Shown: positions 2,071 to 49,550 of the stretch, one piece after another
How positions within the stretch are numbered: position 1 is the first letter of the stretch
Layout of the letters: each line of letters starts with the position of its first letter
From: Candidatus Babeliales bacterium
GTDB lineage: Bacteria; Babelota; Babeliae; Babelales; JACPOV01
Direction: 5' to 3'
Assembly: GCA_036260945.1 (NCBI GenBank)
Contig: DATALT010000001.1
Span: forward strand, 1 to 64,000
DNA length: 64,000 nt
Notes under the pieces: generated by a model
Told to the model about the DNA's origin: nothing
Database searches by the model: none
What the model saw: the letters and a program-made list of their open reading frames with translations, nothing else
Position numbers and translations under genes: made by a program

Positions 2071-2694
2071 TTATTTCTTTATAAACTCAACTACGAATTG
2101 CGACCAGCTTTCCATATTTGGAAAATAAGTCCCGAGCTCTTCAAGCGAAAGAAGCTCTCCACTTTTGAGTTCAGATTTTACTGAAATGTTTGGCGTTTTG
2201 CCTTGAAGCAAAAATACAAATCCAATATGCACTTGCCCGACAGCGTTTGAATCATCATTTAAAATACCGAGCGGCTTTATGGAGAATTCACCTAAATAGT
2301 TCACTTCTTCGTGAAACTCTCGGCGCGCCCAATCAAAAAGTGAATCGGTCTCCATATCTTCTTGGCGAATATGCCCGCCAATACCCAGAGAATATTTATT
2401 TTGAAGACGTTTTTCGGTCGCTTGCGCTGTTCGCTGCATTAAAAAATAGCGCCCTTCGTGCTCAAAAACCAGATAGGGAATGATTTGTTTGTAGGTAGGA
2501 TCCTGCTCCATTAAAGAGCGCGGCAAAAATTCTCTGTGTTGTTTTATGATCGCTAAATAATCATCAAAATTAACCGCCTTTAATCCATTCCACGCCGGTT
2601 GATGCTTAAAAATTTGATCGCGGCGGACGACAAGAATGAGTTCATCTTGTTTTTGGGATAATGGAGCAGGGGTAATTTGCGTTTGATTTACCAT
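2071..2694 (-). CDS. Nudix-family hydrolase
   Basis: A 207-residue protein. Its central part (about residues 72-180) has the Nudix fold signature: GIGGHI at 104-109, then an alpha-helical REFHEEV block at 125-131, whose Glu residues normally bind Mg2+. The spacing between the glycine and the RE motif is several residues longer than in the classic GX5EX7REUXEEXGU box. That loop variation occurs in some Nudix subfamilies. The family hydrolyses nucleoside diphosphates linked to another moiety; the substrate cannot be read from sequence. About 70 N-terminal residues precede the domain and are not recognised. The gene is divergent from leuS, and both have a TGCTATAGTA-type promoter in the shared spacer. 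Confidence 0.8.
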   Translation of the reverse strand: MVNQTQITPAPLSQKQDELILVVRRDQIFKHQPAWNGLKAVNFDDYLAIIKQHREFLPRSLMEQDPTYKQIIPYLVFEHEGRYFLMQRTAQATEKRLQNKYSLGIGGHIRQEDMETDSLFDWARREFHEEVNYLGEFSIKPLGILNDDSNAVGQVHIGFVFLLQGKTPNISVKSELKSGELLSLEELGTYFPNMESWSQFVVEFIKK

Positions 2695-2753
2695 GAGTAA
2701 TCCTTATTAGTAACGCTCATGCATGGCGAACTGGAGGAAAGATTTATTTTTTT

Positions 2754-2763
2754 TACTATAGCA
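2754..2763 (-). promoter_or_regulatory. Extended -10 promoter for the Nudix gene
   Basis: Read on the minus strand this is TGCTATAGTA, an extended -10 (TGn-TATAGT), about 60 bases upstream of the Nudix start. The identical 10-mer occurs on the plus strand at 2807-2816 in front of leuS. No convincing -35 was seen. Confidence 0.45.
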
Positions 2764-2806
2764 CGATCTGAGTAATTTGCACCTGACTTTATGATCCTGG
2801 AAAATC

Positions 2807-2816
2807 TGCTATAGTA
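2807..2816 (+). promoter_or_regulatory. Extended -10 promoter for leuS
   Basis: TGCTATAGTA, with TATAGT at 2810-2815 and the TG extension at 2807-2808. It lies 44 bases before the leuS ATG and has no clear -35. It is the mirror copy of the divergent Nudix promoter. Confidence 0.5.
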
Positions 2817-2859
2817 ACTACATAATAAGTACTTAAAAGCGCATTCAAAAAGGTCCGGC

Positions 2860-5289
2860 ATGAGTTACGATTTTAAAGCAATTGAAGAAAAATGGCAGCA
2901 GCGGTGGGCTGAAAATAATCCGGCAAAAACCAAGCCAACCGGCAGTGGTAAAAAATTTTATTGCCTGGATATGTTCCCCTATCCTTCAGGCTCAGGACTT
3001 CATGTTGGCCACTGGCGCGGTTATGTACTTTCCGATATTTATGCGCGCATTAAATGGCTTGAAGGGTTTAACGTTCTTCATCCGATGGGTTGGGATGCAT
3101 TCGGGCTTCCTGCTGAAAACGACGCAATAAAAAAAGGAATCCAGCCGGAAGTTGGAACGGCAAAAAACATTGCAGTTTTTAAGGAACAACTCAATAAAAT
3201 CGGCGCTATTTATGATTGGTCCAAAGAAATAAATACTACTGATCCCGATTATTATAAGTGGACGCAATGGATTTTTCTGAAAATGTACGATGCTGGCCTT
3301 GCGTACCAAGCAGAATTGCCAATTAATTGGTGCCCATCATGCTTAACCGGCCTTGCAAATGAAGAGGTGGTTAACGGAAAATGCGAGCGATGCGGCACGA
3401 TTGTTACTGAAAAGAAAATCAGGCAATGGGTACTTAAAATAACCGAATACGCCGAAAAATTACTTGAAGGCTTAGATCGTCTTGATTGGCCCGAAAAAGT
3501 AAAATTGATGCAGCGAAACTGGATAGGAAAATCGCACGGAGCAGAAATTCAATTTACCGTTGCTACGCCCACCGGCAAAAAATTACCAATGCCGATTTTT
3601 ACCACGAGCCCTGAAACGCTTTTTGGTGTTACGTTCATTGCGATCGCTCATGATTACAAAGATATTAAAGAGATTCTAGCTTCAGGAAAAGAGAAAGAAC
3701 TAACAAATTTCATGAATGAATTGCATGAGCAATCTGAGCATGATACGAATAAATTCGGCTTTTTTACGGGAAGCTATGCAATTAACCCGATAAATAATCA
3801 AGAGATTCCTATTTGGGTTACTAATTACGTTCTGAGTGGTTATGGAACCGGCGCCGTTATGGGTGTGCCGGGGCATGACGAGCGAGATAACGAATTTGCA
3901 AATAGTTACGACCTTCCAATAATTTATGTGGTCGATAATGATCAAGTGCGTGAGCAGAAAAACGGCCCGCGCGGTTGTTATTCTTATGAAGGAACGCTTA
4001 TCAACAGTGAAGCGTTTAGCGGCTCTGATGCAAAAGCTGGCGCTCGCAAAATGATAGAAACGCTTGCGAAAGAAAGCAAAGCGCAAAAAAAAGTCACCTA
4101 TAAATTGCGCGATTGGATTTTCTCTCGTCAGCGTTATTGGGGTGAACCAATTCCTATAATTCATTGCCCAAAAGATGGCGTGGTGCCCGTTCCTGAAGAT
4201 CAGTTGCCGGTGGTATTGCCACGTGTAAAAGAATATCAGCCGACCGGCACTGGAGAATCGCCACTTGCAGCTATTGAATCTTTTGTAAATACCACGTGCC
4301 CAAAATGTGGTGGCCAGGCAAAGCGCGAAACAAATACGATGCCGCAATGGGCAGGATCAAGCTGGTATTTCTTGCGTTATCCAAATCCACATCTTAAAGA
4401 TAAGCCTTTTGATAAAAAAGACATGGAATATTGGCTCCCAGTAGATCAATACGTGGGCGGTATTGAGCATGCAATATTGCATTTGCTTTATGCGCGATTT
4501 TATACAAAAGTGCTTTACGATTTGGGCTATCTATCTTTTGATGAGCCGTTTGCGCATTTATTTAATCAAGGAATGGTCTGCAAATATTCGGAACTATCGG
4601 GCCATGTGGAGAAGATGTCTAAATCAAAAGGAAACGTAGTTAATCCTGATGAAATTGTAGGAGAATATGGCTCCGATGCATTGCGCATGTACATTTTATT
4701 TATGGGCCCGCCCGAACTAGATTGCGAATGGCAAGATTTGGGGCTTGAGGGCGTTAAGCGTTTCCTCAATCGCCTCTGGATTTTCTTGACCGATAAAGAG
4801 CGTATGCTGCTTGCTGGCGAGCGTGAGGAAAAGGAAGTGACTAAGCGCTTCAATCGCTTTTTGAAAGATTATCAAGAGCGCATTGCTCATTTTAAACCTA
4901 ATACCGCGGTTTCCGCCTGCATGGAATGGTTTAATGATGCCTCTGCGCAGAAAATGAGATTAAGCAGAGAAACGATGGAAAAATTATTGGTCGCATTGTC
5001 GGTTCTTATTCCTCATTTTTCTTCAGAATTGTTGGAGCAATTGCTTGGCAAAGAATTGCAAAGCTGCCCATGGCCGCATTTTGATCCTGCGCTTGCAATG
5101 CGTGATGAGATTTCATTTATGATTCAAGTAAACGGAAAATTACGGGGTGAGTTAATGATTGCGCCGGGCTCGGATCGTGCGATTATTGAACCGCAAGCAT
5201 ACGCGTTTGTTCAAAAATATGTTGAAGGAAAACAACTCGTGAATGTTGTTTTTGTTCCTGATCGATTAATAAATTTTGTCGTAAAGTGA
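2860..5289 (+). CDS. leuS: Leucyl-tRNA synthetase
   Basis: An 809-residue class I aminoacyl-tRNA synthetase that charges tRNA-Leu with leucine in the cytoplasm. The HIGH-type motif HVGH is at residues 48-51 within [16 protein letters not shown], a LeuRS hallmark. The editing (CP1) domain shows [11 protein letters not shown] and [20 protein letters not shown] is at 585-589. CxxC pairs (CPSC, CERC and CPKC) suggest zinc knuckles. Length is within the usual 800-880 range and the C-terminal anticodon-binding region is complete. The start is the ATG after AAGGTCC. The MoxR gene follows after 3 bases, so the two are probably co-transcribed. Confidence 0.97.
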
Positions 5290-47312: not shown

Positions 47313-49550
47313 ATGGATAAAATACGTATTGGTGTGCTTATGGGGGGCAAATCGCTCGAACGAGAAGTTTCATTCAATTCAGGGCGGACGGTTTGCGATC
47401 ATCTTGATACTTTTAGCTTTGAAGTTATTCCGCTTTATCAGAATACCGTTGGCAAACTTTTTATTTTACCGCTTCGCTTTTTGCATCGTGGAAAAACTAC
47501 CGATTTTGAACATCGGCTTGAGACAGAGGCGAAATCAGTGAGCTGGGATGAGCTGAAAGAACTAGTAGATGCGATGTATATAGCGCAGCATGGGCGCTAT
47601 GCAGAAGATGGAACGATGCAAGGTTTTTTAGAAATACTCGGTATTCCCTACGTTGGCAGCAAAGTATTTGCAAGTGCTTTGGGTATGGATAAAATCATGC
47701 AAAAAAAAATACTTAAAGCGAGCGGAATTATGGTGCCGCGTTGCGTCGTAATAACTGCGCATGAATTGCACCATGAATTGAATAAAGAAACTATTCTTTC
47801 TGACATGAAAAAACAGATGATTACTTTTCCGTGCGTTGTAAAGCCCGCTAAAGAAGGCTCCAGCTTTGGGGTTACCGTAGTGCATCATCAAGATGATTTG
47901 ATGCCGGCAATAAAAAAAGCAGCCTATTGCGACAATGGATTGATAGAATCGGTTATTATTGATGAAAAAATAAATGGGATGGAATTTACTACTATTATTA
48001 TTACCGATAATGAAGGCGTTCTTGTGCCACTTTCTGTAACTGAAGTAGTACCGAATCCTGCGCTCGAATATTTCGATTATGAACAAAAATATATGCCCGG
48101 AAAATCGGTGCTTTATACACCTGCGCGTTGTACCCAGGAAGCTTTAGAAAAAATCCAAAATATTTGCTGTAAAGTAATGCGTGTGCTGGAATTTAAAAAT
48201 AGCGCCCGTATCGATGGAATTTTAGCACCAGATGGTTCTATCTTTATTATTGATCCGAATACTTTTAGTGGTGCAAGCCCTTCAAGTTTTATGTTTAAGC
48301 AAGCCGCAGAACGCAATATGAGCCACACCCAACTCATTAATCATTTGATTGAAACTGAGGTGCGGGCTTGTGATAAACTAAATAATCGAATCGATTTGGC
48401 AAAACGAATGGGAAAAATGGAAGACGCTTCACAACATAGTTCTGAAAAAAAAATGCGTGTTGCTGTTTTAATGGGCGGCGCATCCAATGAAAGAGAGATT
48501 TCCCTTGAATCGGGCCGAAACGTATTTTATAAATTATCGCCTCATAGTTATGATGCAATTCCTGTTTTTGTAAACCGACAATTAGAGCTTTTTATTCTTG
48601 ATCAAAAGCTTTTGGTTTCAAGCTCAACAGGGCAAGTAGAAAAAAGCTTAGAATGTGCGCAAAAAATTTCTTGGGCATCATTGCCCGAGCATGCAGATTT
48701 TGTATTTATTGCGCTCCATGGAGGCGCTGGAGAAAATGGCTCTGTTCAGGGAGCGCTGGAAATGTTGGGACTCCCCTATAATGGCTCTTCAGTTCTTGCA
48801 AGCGCATTATGTATGGACAAATGGAAAACGAATTCATTCTTGCGATCAGAGGGGTTTGAAGTACCTCGTGGTTTACTGCTTGAAAAAACTATGTGGGAAA
48901 ATGAGCGAGAGTTTATTAAAAAAGAATTGCAACAGAACGTGGGCACATTTCCGTATATAGTAAAGCCGCATGATGATGGTTGCAGCGTAATGGTTAGCAA
49001 AGTGAATAACGATGATGAGCTTGAGCGAGCGGTGCAAACAATTTTTGATCAAGGCAAAAATGCGGCGCTTATTGAAGAATTGGTAACTGGCATGGAACTC
49101 ACCGTTGGAGTGCTTGGTAATTATTCGCCTCAAGCATTGCCGCCAAGCCAAGCAGTTGTTGCTGGATCAATTTTATCCATAGAGGAAAAGTTTTTACCGG
49201 GAGCTGGAGAGAACCAGACGCCTGCGTTGCTGCCAAAACAGACCTTAGAATATGTTCAGCGCATTATAGAAAAAGTTTTTTCTGCAGTTGGCTGTAGAGG
49301 ATATGCGCGCATTGATTGTTTTTATCAAACGGCACAGCAGAGCGCAACTGGAAAAGAGCGAGTCGTTATTTTAGAAATTAATACATTGCCCGGGCTAACG
49401 CCCGCAACATGCATTTTTCATCAAGCGGCAGAGCTTGGCATGAGACCAATGGACTTTATTAATCAAATTGTTCAGCTTGGTTTGCAAGCCCATGAAGAAC
49501 AATTCGCTGCAGCTGTAGAAAAAAAAATAGAGACTCCAACGGTAAAATAA
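47313..49550 (+). CDS. Tandem-fused D-alanine--D-alanine ligase (two Ddl modules)
   Basis: A 745-residue protein made of two complete ATP-grasp Ddl modules (about 1-362 and 381-730) joined by a short Lys/Glu linker. Each has the SxEREVS-type start (E16; E393), the YxGSxxxASALxMDK block, an ATP Lys (K177; K551) and the RID metal Asp. The halves differ at key sites, using E. coli DdlB numbering by eye. Triad Glu15/Ser150/Tyr216 is E16/S183/Y260 in the N-half but E393/C557/F627 in the C-half. Mg ligand Glu270 is D314 in the N-half (IIDPNT) but E688 in the C-half (LEINTLPG). The product should be D-Ala-D-Ala for peptidoglycan, perhaps D-Ala-D-Lac or a non-catalytic role in the C-half. AAGGAG lies upstream of the ATG. 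The two halves are quite diverged, so the duplication is old. Confidence 0.93.
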   Translation: MDKIRIGVLMGGKSLEREVSFNSGRTVCDHLDTFSFEVIPLYQNTVGKLFILPLRFLHRGKTTDFEHRLETEAKSVSWDELKELVDAMYIAQHGRYAEDGTMQGFLEILGIPYVGSKVFASALGMDKIMQKKILKASGIMVPRCVVITAHELHHELNKETILSDMKKQMITFPCVVKPAKEGSSFGVTVVHHQDDLMPAIKKAAYCDNGLIESVIIDEKINGMEFTTIIITDNEGVLVPLSVTEVVPNPALEYFDYEQKYMPGKSVLYTPARCTQEALEKIQNICCKVMRVLEFKNSARIDGILAPDGSIFIIDPNTFSGASPSSFMFKQAAERNMSHTQLINHLIETEVRACDKLNNRIDLAKRMGKMEDASQHSSEKKMRVAVLMGGASNEREISLESGRNVFYKLSPHSYDAIPVFVNRQLELFILDQKLLVSSSTGQVEKSLECAQKISWASLPEHADFVFIALHGGAGENGSVQGALEMLGLPYNGSSVLASALCMDKWKTNSFLRSEGFEVPRGLLLEKTMWENEREFIKKELQQNVGTFPYIVKPHDDGCSVMVSKVNNDDELERAVQTIFDQGKNAALIEELVTGMELTVGVLGNYSPQALPPSQAVVAGSILSIEEKFLPGAGENQTPALLPKQTLEYVQRIIEKVFSAVGCRGYARIDCFYQTAQQSATGKERVVILEINTLPGLTPATCIFHQAAELGMRPMDFINQIVQLGLQAHEEQFAAAVEKKIETPTVK

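Follow-up and report, generated by a model that had tools for sequence, protein, structure and literature searches.

The D-Ala-D-Ala ligase (Ddl), which textbooks present as a symmetric enzyme, is a D-cycloserine target; in its ordinary form it acts as a homodimer. The stretch of DNA analysed here, a window of 64,000 nucleotides from a Babelota genome, contains a gene in which two Ddl modules are joined in one chain, and the active sites of the two modules are not alike. How is such an enzyme to be understood: as the cell's own ligase in an unusual form, as one working site with a partner, as an enzyme with a second product, or as a duplicate on its way to decay?

The gene itself poses little difficulty. 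It occupies positions 47313-49550 of the forward strand as a single uninterrupted open reading frame of 745 codons, AAGGAG lies just 5' of its ATG, and it is under purifying selection (see below). Pfam finds Dala_Dala_lig_N twice and Dala_Dala_lig_C twice, above the cut-off (E 1.5e-49 and 1.5e-75), and the NCBIfam model TIGR01205 is matched with 471 bits against a cut-off of 245.65. The N module comprises residues 1-355 (47313-48377), the C module residues 379-728 (48447-49496), both on the forward strand like all features named here. The linker between them, residues about 356-378 (48378-48446), is bounded by the alignment of the modules. The preliminary description of two complete Ddl modules in one 745-residue chain is thus borne out by the doubled Pfam domains and by the alignment to E. 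coli DdlB.

This alignment, which is backed by phmmer against 2DLN/1IOW, also defines the residue map; each module on its own matches Ddl chains in the PDB by sequence (phmmer). The Glu-Ser-Tyr triad of DdlB (Glu15, Ser150, Tyr216) is intact in the N module, where it is represented by E16 (codon 47358-47360), S183 (47859-47861) and Y260 (48090-48092). In the C module it is broken: E393 (48489-48491) is kept, while C557 (48981-48983) stands for Ser150 and F627 (49191-49193) for Tyr216. With the magnesium ligand Glu270 the situation is reversed, the C module having the glutamate (E688, 49374-49376) and the N module an aspartate (D314, 48252-48254). The residues originally named by eye (E16, S183, Y260, D314, C557, F627 and E688) all correspond to the DdlB sites to which they had been assigned. 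Most catalytic residues of DdlB are common to both modules. The E. coli enzyme, however, is a single module that unites Ser150, Tyr216, Glu270 and Ser281 in one site, whereas the tandem splits its departures over two.

The preliminary description had proposed to compare a predicted structure with DdlB, to search for other double Ddls and to build a tree of each half. An AlphaFold2 model of the whole chain reached a pLDDT of 91.8 and a pTM of 0.88; in the linker, residues 360-374 form a helix of lower pLDDT (72-78). The best PDB matches of the model in Foldseek are Ddls, and it shares the fold of DdlB (2DLN; Y216F mutant 1IOW) with a TM-score over target of 0.93-0.94. The large subunit of carbamoyl phosphate synthetase also carries two ATP-grasp halves in one chain and appeared at rank 50 of the fold search. 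With an rmsd of 14.5, an identity of 12% and a different chemistry, it is not homologous as a tandem, and a packing of the carbamoyl phosphate synthetase type was discarded.

A match to the tandem was found in 43 of 49 relatives of the window genome, nearly always as a single chain, and 76 of the 86 Babelota genomes sampled had Ddl module matches, again nearly all of them tandem. A scan with the C module yielded at least 72 further loci, nearly all from Bacteroidota, and most of them encode both modules in one chain of some 900 residues; one match is oddly labelled (L076, Saccharibacteria). Cultured bacteria such as Hymenobacter are among the carriers, and further phyla may have the tandem too. 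The tandem is present in 5 of an even sample of 396 genomes of the phylum Bacteroidota, most of the others having single Ddls. Viral contigs gave pattern matches, but no relative, and phage records only Ddl matches of less than 60% identity. At least one of the latter lies beside murC and ftsQ and is therefore probably on a bacterial contig.

From these two phyla we assembled 115 non-identical tandem proteins, 41 from Babelota/Dependentiae and 74 from Bacteroidota, which were picked by BLAST alone. The outcome is uniform. The N module has Ser150, Tyr216 and Asp270 in 115 of 115, the C module Cys150, Phe216 and Glu270 in 115 of 115. Positions 150, 216 and 270 were absent from the recruiting patterns, while recruitment by similarity to the C module leans somewhat to like sequences. 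Among 40 single-module Ddls, Ser150 is kept in 40, Tyr216 in 39 and Glu270 in 40. Since the changes are invariant in tandem homologues of two phyla, whereas the single Ddls keep the canonical residues, chance is not a sensible explanation, and the complementary active-site changes first noticed in one gene hold far beyond it. A threonine in place of Ser281 is also fixed in the C modules, a count that is independent in Babelota only, since the pattern used to find the Bacteroidota loci includes this stretch. Further, most C modules lack Gly153, and no N module has Pro275. An asymmetry fixed in the same way in both phyla points to a separate and specialised version of a known antibiotic target rather than to a decayed duplicate.

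The genomic context tells where such an enzyme may work. In the window genome the tandem is the only gene with a match to the Ddl C-terminal domain, and the genome also encodes MurF and an alanine racemase. Of 23 Bacteroidota with the tandem, 22 have only weak and partial Ddl matches besides it, of the kind that other ATP-grasp enzymes give. Such enzymes are also matched by PF07478, for which reason Ddl counts were judged by frame length and profile coverage. The exception, G069, has a further Ddl-like gene besides the tandem. A well-assembled relative (G008) lacks Ddl, MurF and alanine racemase together and is a candidate for peptidoglycan loss. In a Dependentiae isolate the mur pathway is complete (PMC6561590). 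In Bacteroidota, a PASTA-domain gene accompanies the tandem at 50 of 72 loci; near a single ddl one was seen in 3 of 30 loci, whose flanks were shorter. The PASTA gene adjoins some single ddl genes too, so a tandem can stand where other genomes have a single ddl. Four open reading frames of the wider Bacteroidota set (L101, L106, L109 and L213; 1200-1282 aa) even fuse Ddl, Ddl and PASTA.

Taken together, the lack of any other Ddl, the presence of MurF and racemase, their joint absence with Ddl in G008, the PASTA context and the confident Ddl model make it likely that the gene product, with its two unlike sites, is the one D-Ala-D-Ala ligase of the cell. To be counted against this reading are the facts that neither module has the full canonical set of residues, that no alanine racemase (PF01168) turned up in 20 of the 49 relatives (e.g., G007, G012 and G048), most of which have the tandem Ddl, and that G069 has its extra gene. 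We infer D-Ala-D-Ala as the product, and ATP binding and a contribution to the reaction for each of the two sites. The tandem would then supply D-Ala-D-Ala to MurF for peptidoglycan synthesis and would represent a covalent hetero-pair. Its N module would hold the first D-Ala by the Glu15-Ser150-Tyr216 network next to a magnesium site modified by aspartate; its C module would have the full ATP and magnesium machinery, with the lid and the pocket for the first D-Ala altered by Cys, Phe and Thr. We know of no enzymology for any of the bacterial tandem Ddls found here. A more far-reaching version, which we hold only tentatively, sees an obligately asymmetric Ddl: two non-equivalent sites would divide the labour, for instance with phosphorylation and ligation at one and binding, gating or the use of another acceptor at the other, and this arrangement, conserved in two phyla, would possibly be kin to the DDL of plant plastids.

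The history of the pair can be read from the modules. In a maximum-likelihood tree of 58 modules, the singles, the N modules and the C modules are each set apart by a single branch (support 100/97, 100/99 and 100/100, respectively), so that the two halves form separate, supported groups; a quick tree of 91 rows agrees. Both phyla occur inside the N group and inside the C group, and the N/C pair therefore probably arose once, by one duplication and joining followed by vertical or horizontal spread. This reading of the tree assumes a root among the singles. The duplication and joining of an ancestral single Ddl would then predate the separation of the sampled Babelota and Bacteroidota lineages, or the transfer of the gene between them.

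Purifying selection acts strongly on both modules: against a relative of the same genus, dN/dS is 0.100 for the N module and 0.097 for the C module. Nor does their separation efface the difference. In two Babelota genomes the modules are neighbouring open reading frames, which overlap in L043 and lie a few nucleotides apart in L198. In a Cardinium symbiont (L134, 586-1995 and 2167 onward; L097) the genes of the N and the C module are far apart; the former adjoins a transposase-like open reading frame, the latter retains its PASTA neighbour. Whether split or unlinked, each module retains its own signature, which suggests that both are needed.

Of the competing explanations, the one that survives best has a single catalytic module, with the other as a binding or regulatory partner; we consider it rather unlikely. 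As to the product it agrees with the reading above, of which it is a variant, and what it denies is that the two sites both turn over. The C module of all readable copies has E15, H63, E68, K97, K144, E180, E187, K215, R255, D257, E270 and N272 unchanged, without slack at any ATP or magnesium ligand, and in Babelota it is slightly better conserved than the N module. A purely structural C module, as it had been considered in the preliminary description, is unlikely, because all the other catalytic residues tested are invariant in it; it also persists as a gene of its own and has the low dN/dS already mentioned. The N module, apart from its universal Asp270, shows K144R in 24 of 74 Bacteroidota, a changed N272 in 2 and a lost S281 in 4 of 41 Babelota. 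Comparable slack is not seen in the C module, and the N site, therefore, may not be catalytic everywhere. If one module only were catalytic, these alignments would favour the C module for that part, and the N module would sense or position D-Ala. The N module, however, keeps E15, E68, K97, E187, K215, Y216, R255 and D257 in 115 of 115 proteins and is as strongly selected as its partner, which is more than a purely regulatory domain seems to require.

A second possibility, an improbable one, is an enzyme with two products, whose C module ligates D-Ala to a different acceptor such as D-lactate or a D-amino acid other than D-Ala. Phe or Tyr at position 216 indeed decides between depsipeptide and dipeptide in lactic acid bacteria (PMC5996685), and the premise that a change of the Tyr216Phe type shifts the acceptor towards D-lactate is right for these organisms. 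The Ddl of Leuconostoc and Lactobacillus has its Phe at the same position as the C module (Leuconostoc F261; PMC5996685) and shares, like VanA, the Ddl fold with the tandem. Moreover, the window genome encodes a 2-hydroxyacid dehydrogenase (G000:C2:882466-883491; L197 467-1492) whose best NCBIfam match is generic VanH, at 194 bits against a 540-bit cut-off. Yet the Phe-type Ddls and VanA, which use D-lactate, are single-module enzymes, and the C module adds Cys at 150 and Thr at 281, which makes for a pocket unlike that of known lactate ligases. The tandem scores far below the cut-off of the NCBIfam D-Ala-D-Lac model (282.6 against 550 bits, with both modules adding to the score). A D-lactate-forming dehydrogenase does not co-occur with the tandem across its carriers: strong 2-Hacid_dh matches were found in 8 of 49 related genomes, Phe627 in every tandem read. 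Lactate can therefore be no general explanation, and the D-lactate version of an altered specificity of the C half, as suggested in the preliminary description, is disfavoured by this distribution. Nor would vancomycin pressure obviously drive such a change in bacteria that live inside cells and have an outer membrane.

That the second module is no more than a duplicate in decay or with a structural role, as its non-canonical residues at Ser150 and Tyr216 might insinuate, is hardly credible in view of identical, invariant departures in two phyla, a dN/dS of about 0.10 and the retention of the module where it is unlinked (Cardinium) or split (the two Babelota genomes).

A parallel to the tandem is found in plants. 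The statement that plant and moss DDL proteins (At-DDL, Physcomitrella Ddl) contain two DDL modules in one chain proved correct: plant DDL is a fusion of two putative DDL enzymes and occurs throughout the plant lineage (PMC9954125). Whether the Arabidopsis protein or parts of it are functional ligases is still open according to the same source. The double DDL of moss is needed in vivo for plastid division, which is linked to D-Ala-D-Ala (PMC9954125, PMC7432710). The likeness to the bacterial tandem is one of architecture.

No description of a bacterial tandem Ddl was found in the literature searched, which omits most subscription papers. As a natural Ddl whose two sites have diverged alike in two phyla and which is the sole Ddl of most of its hosts, the tandem lends itself to studies of the role that the second site plays in a Ddl dimer. 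It also provides bacterial relatives for comparison with the unexplained double DDL of plant plastids.

Two minor observations concern individual records. In the tandem of L042, the N module seemed to carry an insert between K259 and Y260, which was considered as an intein and rejected: the assembly has a string of N there (2267-4788), flanked on either side by the same piece of protein, and this looks like a scaffolding artefact. In a Streptomyces plasmid record (L191, 1-1428), a Ddl match lies within a gene annotated alr, which suggests a fusion of alanine racemase and Ddl.
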